This document shows positions 29,344 to 34,581 of a stretch of DNA of 38,997 nucleotides, piece after piece. Within the stretch, counting starts at the first letter, position 1. Every line of letters starts with the position of its first letter. A program made the position numbers and the translations under genes. This DNA is from Sphingomonadales bacterium (GTDB taxonomy: Bacteria; Pseudomonadota; Alphaproteobacteria; Sphingomonadales; Sphingomonadaceae). Below the pieces are notes generated by a model, which saw only the letters and a list, made by a program, of their open reading frames with translations, had not been told where the DNA came from and made no database searches. The stretch lies in contig JAAURJ010000027.1 in assembly GCA_012032285.1 (NCBI GenBank), positions 1-38,997 on the forward strand, read 5' to 3'.

Positions 29344-30561
29344 CTATTGCTTTGACATATTGGCCGAGTTTTGCTTCTCACCAATGTCATTTGCTGCAAT
29401 CTGCGTATACAGCGAAGCCATAGGCTCATCGCCAACGGTCACGGTATCGACATCGCCAAAACCGTTAAATTCCGTCCGCATCGCGCAGCCATAGGCTCCA
29501 AGCATACCGATTTCGATATAATCGCCCGCGCCCATATCATCGGGCAGGATGAAGGGGCCGGGCATGAAGTCCATATCGTCACAAGTCGGACCATAAAAGC
29601 TGAACTCTGTCATACGCACATTGATATTGGTTTCAGGGTTGAGCGCTATCACCGGAAAGCGCCAGCCAATATGCGCGGCATCGAACAGAGCACCATAGGC
29701 ACCGTCATTGACATATAGCTCCTTGCCGCGGCGCTTTTCTACTTTGACTAGCAAAGAGGCATATTCGGCGCACAAGGCGCGGCCCGGCTCACACCAAAGC
29801 TCCGCCGAATAGCTGATCGGCAAGTCTTCAAAGCAGCGTTCGATTACATCGAAATAGCTTTCCAGCACAGGCGGTTCCATGCCGGGATAGACCGAAGGGA
29901 AACCGCCGCCGACATCAATGATATCGACAACCACTGATGCTTCGACAATGGCCGCACGGACAAGGTCCATCGCATCGCTATAGGCTTGCGGGCTCATCGC
30001 TTGGCTACCGACGTGGAAACATATGCCAAGGCAGTCGGCAACTTGCCGTGTTGCGGCCAGCAGGCTGGCAACATCGGCAGGATCAGCTCCGAATTTCGCC
30101 GCTAGGCTTAGCTTCGCATGATCCGAAGATACACGGATACGCACGCACAGCTCCAAATCGGTTGCGGTGACGCCGTCCTTCGATGTCGCCCGGACAATCT
30201 TGTCCAGCTCATCATGGCTGTCGAGCGAAAAGACGCGCACGCCGTGATTGTGATAGGCCTGCGCTATAGCCCGTTCCGATTTCACAGGGTGCATGAAACA
30301 CAAACTCGCATCAGGCAGGAACTTATGCACCAGCCGCACTTCACCCAGTGACGCAACGTCAAAATGGGTTATGCCGGAATCCCAGAGCAATTGCAGCAAT
30401 TGCGGCGAAGGATTGGCCTTTACGGCATAGAGCGACTTGCCCGGAAACTTCTCGGTAAAGAAGCGGGCAGCGCGCTGTGCGGCGTGCGGGCGTAGTAGCG
30501 TGATCGGATCATCCGGGCTTAAAGCGCGGACTACGGCGAGAGCGTCAGGAAATTCGTACAA
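29344..30561 (-). CDS. Ornithine decarboxylase (alanine-racemase fold)
   Basis: This enzyme makes putrescine from ornithine. The 405-residue protein has the PLP lysine Lys48 (SLYAVKANPSP), DVASLGEVR, the His in ICFHVGSQ, the phosphate loop DVGGGFPSVYPG, CEPGRALCAEY, and the catalytic cysteine in FYGPTCDDMDFM, the eukaryotic-like ODC signature. I chose the TTG at 30561 (MYEFPDALAVVRALSPDDP): GGGGG lies nine bases upstream, the family starts here, and the codons between it and a GTG at 30609 would run through the structured leader. Protein sequence alone cannot separate ornithine from lysine specificity. Last gene of the polyamine cluster, possibly with its own leader control. Confidence 0.92.
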   Translation of the reverse strand: MYEFPDALAVVRALSPDDPITLLRPHAAQRAARFFTEKFPGKSLYAVKANPSPQLLQLLWDSGITHFDVASLGEVRLVHKFLPDASLCFMHPVKSERAIAQAYHNHGVRVFSLDSHDELDKIVRATSKDGVTATDLELCVRIRVSSDHAKLSLAAKFGADPADVASLLAATRQVADCLGICFHVGSQAMSPQAYSDAMDLVRAAIVEASVVVDIIDVGGGFPSVYPGMEPPVLESYFDVIERCFEDLPISYSAELWCEPGRALCAEYASLLVKVEKRRGKELYVNDGAYGALFDAAHIGWRFPVIALNPETNINVRMTEFSFYGPTCDDMDFMPGPFILPDDMGAGDYIEIGMLGAYGCAMRTEFNGFGDVDTVTVGDEPMASLYTQIAANDIGEKQNSANMSKQ

Positions 30562-30647
30562 CTCAAGGGACCCCCAATAGTTTGTTAAACTTAAAAATTG
30601 CGAAAACACGCTGCCTTGCGGTTATTGGAAGTCCCCCTGGGGCAGCG
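30562..30647 (-). promoter_or_regulatory. Structured 5' leader of ornithine decarboxylase (speF-motif-like)
   Basis: Two pairings stand out on the minus strand. P: cgctgcc (30647-30641) with ggcagcg (30615-30609). A-B: gggacttccaata (30635-30623) with tattgggggtccc (30579-30567), 13 continuous pairs with two G-U. The A-B partner holds the ribosome binding region six bases before the TTG start. The two pairings cross, so this is a pseudoknot or a two-state switch. A conserved speF leader is known upstream of alphaproteobacterial ornithine decarboxylase genes; the location fits, and I propose this is a member. Confidence 0.65.
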
Positions 30648-30720
30648 GAGAAGTGCGTATATGCAGATGTGGATTTAATGTAAAGTGAATGGGGGCAAAA
30701 AATCGAATTTTTTAGGTTTT

Positions 30721-31893
30721 TTAGCTCAACCGATTTCTGAATTCGGTCCAGTCGAAGCGTTTAACGCATTGAAGATCGTCGGTATCGCTATCCCATAGCC
30801 AGATAGAGGGGAGGGGAACGCCATTGAACGTGTTTGTTTTGACCATTGAATAATGCGCTTGGTCCAAAAAAGCGAACCGCGTACCGGCTTCGCCATTGCC
30901 GGGCATATGATAATCGCCGATGACATCGCCCGCCAGACAGGAAGGCCCGCCCAAGCGAACCGCTTCGCCCTTAGCAGATTCGTGCAGCATAGCGGGGCGG
31001 TAAGGGGCCTCGATCACATCGGGCATATGGCAGGTGGCGGAAATATCGGTTATGGCAACCGGGATATCATTGCGGAACGTGTCAAGGATCGTACCAACCA
31101 ATATCCCGGCATCGAGCGCAACCGCTTCTCCCGGTTCCAGATAAATCTCGCAGCCGCTATCCTCTTTCACATCGCGTAGGAATTCGATCAGTTCCTCCCG
31201 CTGATAATCCGCGCGGGTGATATGATGCCCGCCGCCCAGATTGATCCAATCAAGCTGGTCAAAATAAGGTTCGATAAAATCGAAAACCCGGTCCCATGTG
31301 GCCTGCAGGGGTTCCAGATCCTGTTCGCACAAATTATGGAAATGGATGCCATTCACGCCCTCCATATGTTCCTCGGTCAGTTGATCGACCGGAAAACCTA
31401 ATCGGGAACCGGGGCTGGAGGGGTCATATTTTGGGGTCTCGCCCGTGGGATGCTGCGGATTGATGCGCAGGCCAATATCAAATGTCTGACCAGCGGCGCG
31501 GGCCTGTTCCAATATCAGCGCAGCCCGCCGCATTTGCATGGGTGTGTTGAAGATGACATGATCCGACAAGCGGCAGATTTCGTCCAGCTCATCGGGTTTA
31601 TATGCCGCCGAATAGGTCGCAATTTCACCATCATAAAATTCCGATGCCAGCCGCGCCTCCCAAAGCCCCGATGTGCAAACCCCGTCAAGATATTCGCCGA
31701 TAATGGGCGCGGTGGACCACATGGAAAAAGCTTTCATCGCGGCCAGCACTTTGATCTCCGCCGCATCGCGTATATCGGCTAGAATCTGACAATTGGCACG
31801 CAGCTTCGCCGCATCCACGACGAAAGCCGGGCTGTCTACGCGGGAAAGGTCAAAATGGGCAAAGGCCCCAGGATCGCCAGCTTTTGTTTCCAT
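30721..31893 (-). CDS. nspC: Carboxynorspermidine decarboxylase
   Basis: NspC removes CO2 from carboxyspermidine or carboxynorspermidine to give spermidine or norspermidine, the last step of the alternative polyamine route. The 390-residue alanine-racemase-fold enzyme has the PLP lysine Lys54 (AAMKAFSMWS), SGLWEARLA, the GSRLGFPV and GIHFHNLCEQD segments, NLGGGHHIT, LEPGEAV and the catalytic cysteine region GGPSCLAGDVIGDY, all typical of this decarboxylase. ATG at 31893 starts the family sequence. Upstream are a small lipoprotein and the dehydrogenase that makes its substrate; downstream is ornithine decarboxylase, which supplies putrescine. Confidence 0.95.
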   Translation of the reverse strand: METKAGDPGAFAHFDLSRVDSPAFVVDAAKLRANCQILADIRDAAEIKVLAAMKAFSMWSTAPIIGEYLDGVCTSGLWEARLASEFYDGEIATYSAAYKPDELDEICRLSDHVIFNTPMQMRRAALILEQARAAGQTFDIGLRINPQHPTGETPKYDPSSPGSRLGFPVDQLTEEHMEGVNGIHFHNLCEQDLEPLQATWDRVFDFIEPYFDQLDWINLGGGHHITRADYQREELIEFLRDVKEDSGCEIYLEPGEAVALDAGILVGTILDTFRNDIPVAITDISATCHMPDVIEAPYRPAMLHESAKGEAVRLGGPSCLAGDVIGDYHMPGNGEAGTRFAFLDQAHYSMVKTNTFNGVPLPSIWLWDSDTDDLQCVKRFDWTEFRNRLS

Positions 31894-31955
31894 TTAAGAA
31901 TCCCATTCCGTTTGTTTTGCGTAGAGACGCAGAGTTTCGCAATGCAAGCAGAGCA

Positions 31956-32312
31956 TTATTCATTTTGTGGCAGCTCTGGGCAGCGATGCCATAGATCATT
32001 AAGTTTTAAGCCATCTTTTGAGAGAACCAGCTTTTTTGGGGCTATGCGATAAACATCTTGCTTAGGGTAATAACTCAGCTTCAGATGGCTTTTAGTAACA
32101 GTCACCATATTGACCTGATAATCCTCTGCGTGGAACCCGACACTGTCTTCACTAATAAAAAGCTCGTTATCCAGCGTATCGCCTTCATAGTTGCAGTAAG
32201 CTTTATCCATGCTCCAGCTACCCTGATATTGGGCCGGTATTATTTGTGTTTTTGATACAGTTGCGCAAGCGGTAAAGGCCATAAGAGGCAGGATTGTTGC
32301 AAATTTCTTCAA
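31956..32312 (-). CDS. Small predicted lipoprotein inside the polyamine cluster
   Basis: This 118-residue protein of unknown function has a lipoprotein signal (MKKFATILPLMAFTAC, Cys at 16). The mature part begins with ATVSKTQIIPAQYQGSWSM, then AYCNYEGDTLDNELFISEDSVG, and ends with a second cysteine region (LWHRCPEL); two cysteines could form one disulfide. Pattern and size resemble small envelope lipoproteins with a single beta domain, but I assign no family. The start is a TTG at 32312 that overlaps the TGA of the dehydrogenase (TTGA); there is no usable ATG before the lipobox. Base composition is lower in GC than its neighbours. No link to polyamines is visible other than position. Confidence 0.65.
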   Translation of the reverse strand: MKKFATILPLMAFTACATVSKTQIIPAQYQGSWSMDKAYCNYEGDTLDNELFISEDSVGFHAEDYQVNMVTVTKSHLKLSYYPKQDVYRIAPKKLVLSKDGLKLNDLWHRCPELPQNE

Positions 32313-33520
32313 AACCCGACCGGCCCGTCTAGTTCTTCAACGGTCCAAGGAAGACCGTCGCTGTTGAGCATTTCCATGAAGGGATCGGGATCCATTTCTT
32401 CCATGTTGAACACGCCGTCGCCGCTCCATTTGCCGGTAACCATCATGGCCGAACCGATCATTGCGGGGACGCCGGTTGTATAGCTGACCGCTTGATTGCC
32501 GGTTTCTTCATAGGCGGCCTCATGGCTACAGATATTTTTGATATAATATGTCTTTTCACCCGAACCGTCCAAAGCTTCGCCGGTTGCGATCACGCCGATA
32601 TTGGTATTGCCCTTTGTGGTTTCACCCAGCGTTTCTGGTTTGGGCAAAACGGCGGCAAGGAATTGCAACGGAATGATTTCCTGCCCCTGATAGCGTACCG
32701 GCGCGATAGAGGTCATACCGACATTTTGCAGCACAGTGAGATGTTTGATATACTCATCGCCAAAGGTCATCCAGAAACGCGCACGCTCAAGCTCGGGGAT
32801 GAATTTGGCGAGGCTTTCCAGCTCCTCATGATACATCATATACATATTTTTGGGGCCAACTGCTTCAAAGTCGAATTCGACCTTATGCGCCATCGCCGGG
32901 GTTTCAATAAACTGACCATTTTCCCAATGGCGCGCCGGGGCTGTTACTTCGCGGATATTGATTTCGGGGTTGAAATTAGTGGCAAAGGCCTGCCCATGAT
33001 CGCCGCCATTGCAATCGAGAATATCAAGCTGGCGGATGGTCTTGAGCTTATGTTTCTTGAGCCACATGGTGAAAACGCTGGTAACGCCCGGGTCAAAACC
33101 TGACCCCAAAAGCGCCATTAACCCGGCTTGTTTGAACCGGTCATGATAGGCCCACTGCCAGTGATATTCGAACTTTGCCTCATCCTTGGGTTCATAATTG
33201 GCTGTGTCGAGATAGCTGACCCCGGCGGCGAGACAGGCGTCCATGATCGGAAGATCTTGATAGGGAAGGGCAAGGTTGACGACGAGTGCGGGACGGATTT
33301 GTTCGATTAATTTGGTCAGCGCGGGCACTTCTTCGGCGTCAATTTCATAGGTGGCGACTTCGGTGCCGGTTCGCTCTTTCACAGAAGTGGCAATAGCATC
33401 GCATTTGCGCTTTGTCCGGCTAGCGAGGTGAATGTCACCGAAGATAGTCTTGTTCATGGCCATTTTGTGGACCGCGACTGAGCTGACCCCGCCTGCTCCG
33501 ATTACCAAAATTTTGCTCAT
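32309..33520 (-). CDS. Carboxynorspermidine dehydrogenase (saccharopine dehydrogenase family)
   Basis: This NADPH-dependent enzyme condenses putrescine (or diaminopropane) with aspartate 4-semialdehyde to carboxyspermidine/carboxynorspermidine. The 403-residue protein opens with the Rossmann loop ILVIGAGGVSSVAVHKMA, has LASRTKRKCDAIA after the second strand, and LALPYQDLPIMDACLAAGVSYLDTANYEP, the pattern of the carboxynorspermidine dehydrogenases rather than of lysine-forming saccharopine enzymes. Gene context with nspC confirms the assignment. ATG at 33520 follows aaaggaag; a reading from 33655 would add 45 non-family residues. It heads the minus-strand polyamine cluster and is divergent from the dehydratase gene across 53 bases. 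Confidence 0.93.
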   Translation of the reverse strand: MSKILVIGAGGVSSVAVHKMAMNKTIFGDIHLASRTKRKCDAIATSVKERTGTEVATYEIDAEEVPALTKLIEQIRPALVVNLALPYQDLPIMDACLAAGVSYLDTANYEPKDEAKFEYHWQWAYHDRFKQAGLMALLGSGFDPGVTSVFTMWLKKHKLKTIRQLDILDCNGGDHGQAFATNFNPEINIREVTAPARHWENGQFIETPAMAHKVEFDFEAVGPKNMYMMYHEELESLAKFIPELERARFWMTFGDEYIKHLTVLQNVGMTSIAPVRYQGQEIIPLQFLAAVLPKPETLGETTKGNTNIGVIATGEALDGSGEKTYYIKNICSHEAAYEETGNQAVSYTTGVPAMIGSAMMVTGKWSGDGVFNMEEMDPDPFMEMLNSDGLPWTVEELDGPVGF

Positions 33521-33573
33521 TGCCGCTTCCTTTGTTTTTGCAAGATTCGTCTGCTTTGATATAGAATGCTGAT

Positions 33574-34581
33574 ATGACAGCACAAGACCCGCTTTCCCCC
33601 AATAGCAAAGCCGCCCGCACCCCAGATAGAGAGGGGGTTTTGCGGGCTGCCGCAAAAATCGCTGAAATCTTGCCGCCCACGCCGCTTCTGCCGTTGGAGG
33701 TGGATGGGGTAACGCTTTGGTGTAAGGCCGAAATGCTGCAACCTGTTGGGGCCTTCAAGATACGTGGGGCTTGGCACCGTCTAACCGATATGACGCCATT
33801 GGAGCGCAAACAGGGTGTTGTAGCAGTGTCCAGCGGCAATCATGCACAGGGTGTCGCTTGGGCAGCTCGAAGACTAGCTATTGGCGCGACCATAGTGATG
33901 CCTGAAAATGCGCCAGCGGCCAAAATCGCGGCGACCAGGGCCTTGGGCGCCGAAGTGGTTTTGTATCAGCGTCCCGGACAAGATCGTGATGCCATTGCGG
34001 CGGAAATCACTGCACGCACAGGAGCAATTTTGGTCCATCCCTTTGCCGACCCATGGGTGATTGAGGGGCAGGGTACGCTGGGCATTGAGGCGGCTGCGCA
34101 AATGAAGGCTGCGGGGATTGATGATGGGCCGCAGCATATCGTCGCTTGCTGCGGAGGCGGCGGATTAGCGGCGGGACTTGCGCTGGCCTGTCCAGATGCC
34201 AAACTCTCAATCGCTGAACCAGAGGGTTGGGACGATGTTATCCGGTCAATAGAGGCAGGATTGATCGTGCCAGTTGCCGATCAATCCTATCAAACACCCT
34301 GTGATGCGCTGCAAACACCGCGCACCTTCCCTATAAATTTCACCATTTTGAAAAGCAGAATATATAGCAGCGCAGCAGTTACACCGGCGGACATAAGCGC
34401 AGCAATGCGTTTGGTCTTTGAAAAACTGCGCCTCGTTGTCGAACCGGGCGGCGCGGCGGCGCTGGCGGCGGTTGTTTCTGGTAAAATAGCTATAGAAGGT
34501 TCCGCGCTGGTAACTCTTTCTGGCGGCAATATTGATCCGAATCTATTTGCTAAAATAATTTCAAATAATACAGTTCGATAG
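33574..34581 (+). CDS. PLP-dependent threonine/serine dehydratase
   Basis: This fold-type II enzyme deaminates threonine or serine to oxo acid and ammonia. The 335-residue protein has the PLP lysine Lys62 in GAFKIRGAWHRL, SSGNHAQGVAWAARRL, the glycine-rich phosphate loop ACCGGGGLAAG and a C-terminal SGGN motif. It lacks the C-terminal ACT regulatory domains of IlvA (about 510 residues), so it is a short, unregulated dehydratase, or a serine racemase-like enzyme; a biosynthetic role in isoleucine formation with the nearby ilvD is possible but not adjacent. ATG at 33574. It is divergent from the polyamine cluster and shows no clear terminator. Confidence 0.88.
   Translation: MTAQDPLSPNSKAARTPDREGVLRAAAKIAEILPPTPLLPLEVDGVTLWCKAEMLQPVGAFKIRGAWHRLTDMTPLERKQGVVAVSSGNHAQGVAWAARRLAIGATIVMPENAPAAKIAATRALGAEVVLYQRPGQDRDAIAAEITARTGAILVHPFADPWVIEGQGTLGIEAAAQMKAAGIDDGPQHIVACCGGGGLAAGLALACPDAKLSIAEPEGWDDVIRSIEAGLIVPVADQSYQTPCDALQTPRTFPINFTILKSRIYSSAAVTPADISAAMRLVFEKLRLVVEPGGAAALAAVVSGKIAIEGSALVTLSGGNIDPNLFAKIISNNTVR

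Follow-up and report, generated by a model that had tools for sequence, protein, structure and literature searches.

In Salmonella and E. coli the ornithine decarboxylase gene speF is preceded by a leader that combines a short reading frame with RNA folds, and the enterobacterial leader peptide SpeFL is an arrest peptide through which the ribosome responds to ornithine or a polyamine. The alphaproteobacterial leader that is also named speF (RF00518; Corbino et al. 2005, PMC1273637) precedes genes of COG0019 decarboxylases. A further alphaproteobacterial element, odc1 (uORF-25-1), was described from 272 examples by Brewer et al. (2021, RNA Biology, PMC8632094). The text on odc1 in that paper specifies: a stem whose right shoulder holds the ribosome binding site (RBS); a pseudoknot that joins the 5' end to the loop; and a UUG main start, with another UUG two nucleotides upstream and an upstream reading frame (uORF) of 11 residues. 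The legend on odc1-associated genes includes pfam01124. The authors further report lacZ fusions in E. coli of the copy from Sphingomonas echinoides, in which both starts were used, that of the uORF about 3-fold more, and mutants (M4 to M6, in conserved nucleotides before the pseudoknot strand) that lost expression of the main ORF, while M4 and M5 kept that of the uORF. In the literature that was searched, which left most subscription papers and all bioRxiv preprints outside its scope, we recognised no later publication on odc1, and no signal sensed by odc1 was named in what was found.

Architecture of the leader and its match to odc1

We analysed a stretch of 38,997 nucleotides (the window) from a Sphingomonadales bacterium (NCBI GenBank assembly GCA_012032285.1, contig JAAURJ010000027.1), in which a first-pass annotation, made from the letters only, had pointed to a folded leader before an ornithine decarboxylase gene. 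The features are collected in Table 1. Read along the minus strand, the leader (30647-30562) consists of: CGCUGCC, a short spacer, GGGACUUCCAAUA, ACCGCAA, GGCAGCG, a linker, UAUUGGGGGUCCC and UUGAG, after which the UUG of the decarboxylase gene follows at 30561. Both predicted pairings were recovered: a 13-pair helix over the ribosome binding region (helix 2; 30635-30623 with 30579-30567, including 2 G-U pairs, duplex energy -19.4 kcal/mol), which encloses the Shine-Dalgarno (SD) sequence GGGGG (30575-30571), and a 7-pair helix (helix 1; 30647-30641 with 30615-30609, -12.6 kcal/mol), which crosses it. The nested minimum-energy fold contains helix 2 and lacks helix 1. The main start (30561-30559) lies 9 nt after the SD and a second UUG (30566-30564) 4 nt after it, the two starts being 5 nt apart and served by one SD. 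This second UUG with its 11-codon uORF had been overlooked in the first-pass annotation, as had the promoter-like sequence directly upstream and the published identity of the element.

Table 1. Features of the decarboxylase leader and gene in the window
Feature	Position	Strand	Basis or remark
-35 box TTTACA, probable	30679..30684	-	17 bp before the -10 box; sequence pattern
-10 box TATACG, probable	30656..30661	-	sequence pattern
Transcript start, predicted	about 30650-30648	-	prediction
Helix 1 (pseudoknot), 5' strand CGCUGCC	30641..30647	-	complementarity and relatives
Helix 2 (P1 of odc1), 5' strand GGGACUUCCAAUA	30623..30635	-	complementarity and relatives
Conserved CCGCAA, immediately 5' of the helix 1 3' strand	30616..30621	-	almost invariant in the aligned leaders
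Helix 1 (pseudoknot), 3' strand GGCAGCG	30609..30615	-	complementarity and relatives
Helix 2, 3' strand UAUUGGGGGUCCC with the SD GGGGG	30567..30579	-	complementarity and relatives
uORF: UUG start, 11 codons (start + SCTNFLTLSP), TAG stop	30531..30566	-	reading frame; overlaps the main ORF out of frame
Main ORF: UUG start, ornithine decarboxylase-type PLP enzyme, 405 aa	29344..30561	-	Pfam PF02784/PF00278

Every odc1 feature that is given in the section text of PMC8632094 and can be read from a sequence is present in the window: the position directly before an ornithine decarboxylase-type gene; the extended stem P1 with the RBS in its right shoulder (helix 2); the pseudoknot between the 5' end and the P1 loop (helix 1, by complementarity and by compensatory changes in relatives); the two UUG starts separated by two nucleotides; and the uORF of 11 residues (TAG at 30533-30531). 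Since no Rfam model fires at the leader, its membership in odc1 rests on the description in the text of that paper. We consider it highly likely that the leader is a member of odc1, that is, a short 5' leader that controls the start of ribosomes on the ornithine decarboxylase mRNA and that probably has its own promoter. The element has already been described, and the comparison of sequences supports an assignment of this leader to odc1 instead of speF. The present analysis adds the compensatory changes in helix 1, the retention of the uORF stop though the peptide varies, the exclusive use of valid uORF starts, the presence of one copy per genome in one family of those sampled, and the existence of leaders (13/128) in which the SD is mostly unpaired.

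The counts given below refer in part to sets of 110 and 176 loci, which hold some genomes twice and represent 90 and 134 distinct leaders, respectively. A -35/-10-like pair that ends just 5' of helix 1 was found in 165 of the 176 loci (by a permissive custom pattern, applied without a chance control), and CTTTACA is visible in most aligned leaders. Because the pair ends directly before helix 1, the transcript probably begins with the fold, and the leader probably has its own promoter a few nucleotides upstream.

The best solved relatives of the main ORF are lysine/ornithine decarboxylases (E 8.7e-46). None of the NCBIfam models scored over its cut-off for this ORF, so the substrate specificity of the decarboxylase is a prediction. 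Just upstream, on the same strand (30721-33655), lie genes resembling those for carboxynorspermidine decarboxylase (nspC; 374 bits, below the cut-off of 409) and carboxynorspermidine synthase (387 bits, cut-off 800). Of 80 named loci, 38 have a relative of nspC upstream in the same orientation, within the flank that was examined. The decarboxylase gene is followed, on the same strand, by two adjacent genes of the MAPEG family (PF01124; 28726-29199 and 28278-28715), relatives of which occur downstream in 44 of the 80 named loci.

The first-pass annotation had further taken TTG 30561 for the real start and the GTG at 30609 for a wrong one. The former proved right; UUG is the main start in 133 of 134 distinct loci. 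The GTG starts on the final base of the helix 1 3' strand, and its counterpart at -48 occurs in only 2 of 110 loci, namely L089 (the copy in the window) and L090. Within the 60 nt upstream of the TTG, 41 of the 110 loci have an in-frame stop and 47 have some in-frame ATG, GTG or TTG (mostly a TTG at -33/-36), none of which is common to all loci, and the length of the linker varies among leaders by non-multiples of three. Judged from these comparisons, GTG 30609 is very probably not the start.

Relation to speF and distribution of the leader

The leader had been thought to belong to speF. The suggested check with the Rfam speF covariance model gave no match, which is one of the two outcomes that the first-pass annotation itself had named together as counting against its proposal. 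No family of Rfam 15 exceeded its threshold in the whole 39-kb window, and a search of 30400-30900 at E up to 10 recovered no RF00518 and only a chance-level match to an unrelated viral family (30491-30531), outside both helices. Among 61 genomes (the own genome and relatives) none held RF00518 over its cut-off; sub-threshold matches at E ≤ 1 occurred in 22 of them (best 19.9 bits against a cut-off of 37; none in the own genome) and also in 2 of 14 control genomes. In a sample of the class, RF00518 was over cut-off in 14 of 387 genomes and 16 loci were retrieved at E ≤ 0.001. The decarboxylases at all 16 of these speF loci are only 28-31% identical to that of the window, and their leaders are long and quite different in sequence (ACUGAAGAGGCACACC and variants). 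In the stretch between -420 and +60 nt relative to their starts, neither GCTGCCCCA nor GGGACTTCC was found at any of the 16 loci, and CCGCAAGG and GGRGGTCCC were found at one each (L124 and L131), each alone.

That the leader is speF, or a divergent form of it, might be argued from the similar downstream gene in the same bacterial class, from conserved blocks, still without explanation, that Corbino et al. (PMC1273637) noted in the interval from speF to the start codon, and from one of the 16 speF loci, L131, that carries GGAGGTCCC before its start. Against the missing match at the gathering threshold and at E ≤ 10, the 61 genomes, the distant decarboxylases behind true speF leaders and the absence or isolation of the odc1 core pieces there, this reading is extremely improbable. 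Membership in speF was rejected on the Rfam model (window, 61 genomes and 387 genomes of the class), on the different decarboxylase and sequence, and on the search for the odc1 core at true speF-led starts. At 13 of the 14 over-threshold speF loci (L119-L132), a match to ar45 (RF02347, which Rfam lists as an sRNA gene) immediately precedes the speF match in the same orientation, only a few nucleotides from it, and the two families may be halves of one leader.

A covariance model built from 22 long-form leaders located one place per genome in 182 of the 247 genomes of the order. With the families taken as the table is ordered, all hits fall in the family of the window (182/186) and none in the 61 genomes of other families. 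The sample of the class yielded hits in 6 of 387 genomes, namely the own genome and five of the same family; in both searches the filters were strict, at the cost of weak matches. Under laxer filters the four genomes missed in the family divided into one positive (G473, E 0.005), one with a decayed copy (G652, E 0.48) and two without any (G522 and G526), the last of which has no decarboxylase at E ≤ 1e-20. Two second matches in this laxer search (E 0.08 and 0.19) are at chance level. No copies were seen before other genes, the order-wide search giving one match per genome, and all 64 fetched loci with a model hit (L135-L198) contain the decarboxylase gene, from which it follows that element and gene travel together.

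A related decarboxylase (40-53% identical) is present in 12 of 24 genomes from other families of the order. None of these 12 genes is accompanied by GCTGCCCCA, GGGACTTCC or CCGCAAGG, and GGRGGTCCC was found only at L202. There, before a gene for a decarboxylase of about 53% identity, GGAGGTCCCATGAATGG resembles the SD/start block of odc1 without the rest of the motif, which may be chance or a remnant. Within the sampled genomes odc1 presents itself as an orphan control element, found in 182 of 186 members of one family, once in each, before the gene for the committed enzyme of polyamine synthesis.

Conservation of the helices and of the upstream reading frame

Among 3000 dinucleotide shuffles of the core (86 nt), 42 could form a helix with 13 pairs or more, and 6 of the 3000 could combine it with a crossing helix of 7 pairs or more. 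For the nested fold the energy is unremarkable (z = -0.33, with an equal or better value in 66 of 200 shuffles), so folding energy alone would not have revealed the leader, and the weight of its reality lies on the conservation of the core in relatives; folding stability, being no better than in shuffles, was set aside as evidence. The core that is kept in relatives reads GCUGCCCCA..GGGACUUCC..ACCGCAAGGCAGC..GGRGGUCCCUUGARUUG. A MAFFT alignment of 49 leaders misplaced the GGGA strand between long and short forms and was replaced by one fitted to the covariance model, which comprises 84 of 177 sphingomonad loci (81 distinct leaders): 53 that represent clusters at 85% and 31 further, mostly divergent ones.

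Helix 1 has 6 pairs in most relatives, without the outermost C-G (judged by eye). Its cells are paired for 95.8% in the model-fitted alignment, and 3 of its 6 pairs have changes on both sides. Individual changes include U-A for C-G in both L190 and L198; three related leaders, L186, L191 and L193, carry a U-G wobble where others have G-C. Seven rows (L073, L174, L179, L188, L192, L195 and L196) were misplaced for helix 1, and in three of these compensations were read by eye and then confirmed: U-A to A-U in L174 (GCAGCC/GGCTGC), U-A to C-G in L195 (GCCGCC/GGCGGC) and C-G to U-A in L192 (GTTGCC/GGTGAC). In the same seven leaders an additional hairpin separates the helix 1 strand from the GGGA strand. 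Just three plain pairs are kept in L051, L065, L185 and L189 (by eye), L176 has a mismatch and L200 has one mismatch. The search for covariation in sphingomonad relatives, which the first-pass annotation had proposed, thus did find compensatory changes in helix 1, contrary to the second of its refuting outcomes. Its view of a cis-acting leader of an ornithine decarboxylase-type gene, with two crossing pairings of which one encloses the RBS, proved right.

The SD-side duplex of helix 2 has 9-12 pairs in 98 of 128 distinct leaders, 13 in 9 and 4-6 in 14. Double changes occur at 2 of its 11 pairs (13 cells; U-A, U-G and C-G at the one, A-U, G-C and U-A at the other), in an alignment that is fitted to helix 2 and with a 3' strand that is held by the SD. 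Over both helices we counted 18 double-changed cells against 6.0 ± 2.4 in shuffles (0/500 as high), distributed over 5 pairs, a number reached by 15 of 500 shuffles; pair types were not in excess (119 of 500 shuffles as high). When the partners were slid by +2 columns, likewise 5 pairs had double changes (11 cells, against 18), which argues that the covariation is modest. Of all cells in both helices 96.5% are paired, versus at most 57.7% in the slid versions. Helix 1 accordingly shows covariation that is real but modest, and what helix 2 shows is for the most part complementarity.

The extension of helix 2 over the SD (at least 4 of the 5 SD G's) is present in 114 of the 128 distinct leaders and absent in 14; one of the latter (L175) owes its low value to a long linker that was cut, so that 13 is the fair number. 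In these 13 leaders, L180 and L191 among them, most of the SD is free and pairing is confined to the stretch directly behind it (L187 pairs only GGCC with GGUC). The missing SD-covering part implies that simple hiding of the RBS is not universal. When the 3' segment was shuffled (176 loci), at least 9 pairs arose in 4 of 176, versus 107 of the 128 real leaders, and 4-6 pairs in 136 of 176, so that the short forms are no longer than expected by chance; the support for the short pairing in the 14 leaders is the block GGGA(C) kept at its place, and not the length of the pairing.

The uORF stops 28 nt into the main gene. Its stop at codon 12 is found in all 110 loci (90 distinct leaders; TAG 98, TGA 10, TAA 2). 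Given the residues and the codon usage of the main gene, chance would yield a stop in a mean of 7% at 85% clustering and of 13% at 75% clustering, against 53/53 and 10/10 observed, respectively; joint probabilities derived from these values assume an independence that related sequences do not have. All 89 clusters (<85% identity) have the stop, versus a background of 2.4% in that frame. Over 135 distinct leaders (the 134 and L200) it is present in 133, and the two exceptions, L199 and L200, are from genomes in which the RNA motif is absent or decayed; judged from these two cases only, the motif and the uORF seem to decay together. L200, which has no anchor and has TGG as codon 12, was left out of the counts of starts, stops and peptides over the 134 leaders. 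The uORF starts in these 134 are all valid: TTG 130, GTG 3 and ATG 1. In genome G473 (L198 / L201) the leader is AT-rich and both starts have changed to ATG, with an 11-codon uORF retained. A further candidate pairing, between CCCCA of the leader and UGGGG of the main codons, was considered and rejected: it is better explained by the codons of the uORF and is absent in Sphingorhabdus (by eye).

The 11-residue peptides come in 78 distinct forms, of which 74 have Cys at position 3. The mean entropy per uORF residue is 1.69 bits versus 0.81 for the body of the main protein, with 1.71 for the overlapped main residues 2-10 (this comparison and that of the clusters left out L198, L199, L200 and coding sequences of ≤330 codons). 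Six loci of one clade (L010, L102, L104, L105, L109 and L114) have an extra in-frame stop, which leaves a uORF of 9 codons with the usual stop still there. The fixed position of the stop raises the option that the uORF encodes an arrest peptide, like SpeFL, that senses ornithine or a polyamine on the ribosome and that the RNA folds only serve. The near-constant Cys and the overlap with the gene for the committed enzyme would fit such a peptide as well. It is weakened by residues 4-11, which vary, though the overlapped main residues do so to the same degree, by the clade that stops after 9 codons, and by the consideration that a ribosome arrested at the last uORF codons would lie over the main start or crowd it; we regard it as improbable. 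The variable peptide and the 9-codon clade favour the reading that translation and termination of the uORF, and not its product, are what matters.

In the larger comparison the crossing helix, CCGCAA, GGGA/UCCC, two valid starts and the early stop are kept, and the peptide sequence and the full pairing of the SD are not. This separation makes the mechanism of the leader directly testable.

Possible control of start choice and comparison with known systems

In the mechanism that we propose, the single SD may serve either UUG, and GGGA(CUUCC), in the loop of the second, crossing helix, can pair with the SD, with the UCCC that directly follows the SD, or with both. The fold would then decide between a closed RBS, a start on the uORF and a start on the main ORF, the choice of start would set the output of decarboxylase and polyamines, and a ligand, perhaps of the polyamine pathway, could tip the balance. 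The carboxynorspermidine-like neighbours, both below their curated cut-offs, make a polyamine-pathway signal reasonable and prove nothing. By our own reading of the text of Brewer et al., the conserved nucleotides mutated in M4 to M6 correspond to CCGCAA. The loss of main-ORF expression in these mutants suggests that the main start depends on some element close to the pseudoknot. Such a dependence is hard to reconcile with a pairing that acts only as a lid on the SD, because breaking the lid should raise both starts.

It could also be that the pairing senses nothing and is a static brake, i.e. a weak and half-hidden RBS that keeps the enzyme low. The UUG main start that almost all distinct loci share would suit a brake, and so would the fact that no ligand is reported for odc1 in section 19 of PMC8632094. 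The near-invariant unpaired CCGCAA and the kept uORF, however, exceed what a brake needs, and M4 and M5 separate the two starts (PMC8632094); all in all, a brake seems unlikely.

The leaders with a mostly free SD suggest a selection of starts that is based on spacing. The pairing common to nearly all copies is that of GGGA with the UCCC between the SD and the two UUGs, so that ribosomes would prefer the main UUG when this spacer is folded and the uORF when it is open. While the pseudoknot holds, the UCCC would be tied up, the uORF UUG would be too close and the main UUG at a good distance; when the pseudoknot opens, ribosomes would take the uORF, translate 11 codons and end inside the main gene. 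A signal of the polyamine pathway would in that case shift the use of the one SD from a futile to a productive start, or back, through effective spacing, and not simply by hiding the ribosome site. We put this forward as a tentative and rather doubtful proposal, since 4-6 pairs arise so readily in the shuffled control.

Compared with the speF leader of Salmonella and E. coli, which precedes another enzyme and encodes a longer, sequence-specific leader peptide, the peptide found here varies and overlaps the main start. The SAM-II (metA) riboswitch (RF00521; PMC1273637) likewise has a compact stem and a crossing pseudoknot helix in a leader; it differs in its genes, its family has no Rfam match here, and no uORF is mentioned for it in the text consulted. 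The alphaproteobacterial speF of Corbino et al. shares with this leader the position before a COG0019 decarboxylase gene, and differs in being longer, in sequence, in the subgroup of the decarboxylase (by identity) and in its place behind ar45 in 13 of the 14 scanned loci. Relative to odc1, the length of the peptide, for which the text of the paper states no variation, is 9 codons in 6 of our 110 loci; most peptide positions are called highly conserved there, whereas residues 4-11 vary here; and we found short-helix variants with most of the SD free, of which the odc1 section of PMC8632094 makes no mention. The leader and odc1, as described in that section, are alike in the downstream gene, the long RBS-bearing stem, the pseudoknot, the two UUGs with two nucleotides between them, the uORF of 11 residues, their occurrence in alphaproteobacteria and the pfam01124 (MAPEG) genes downstream.
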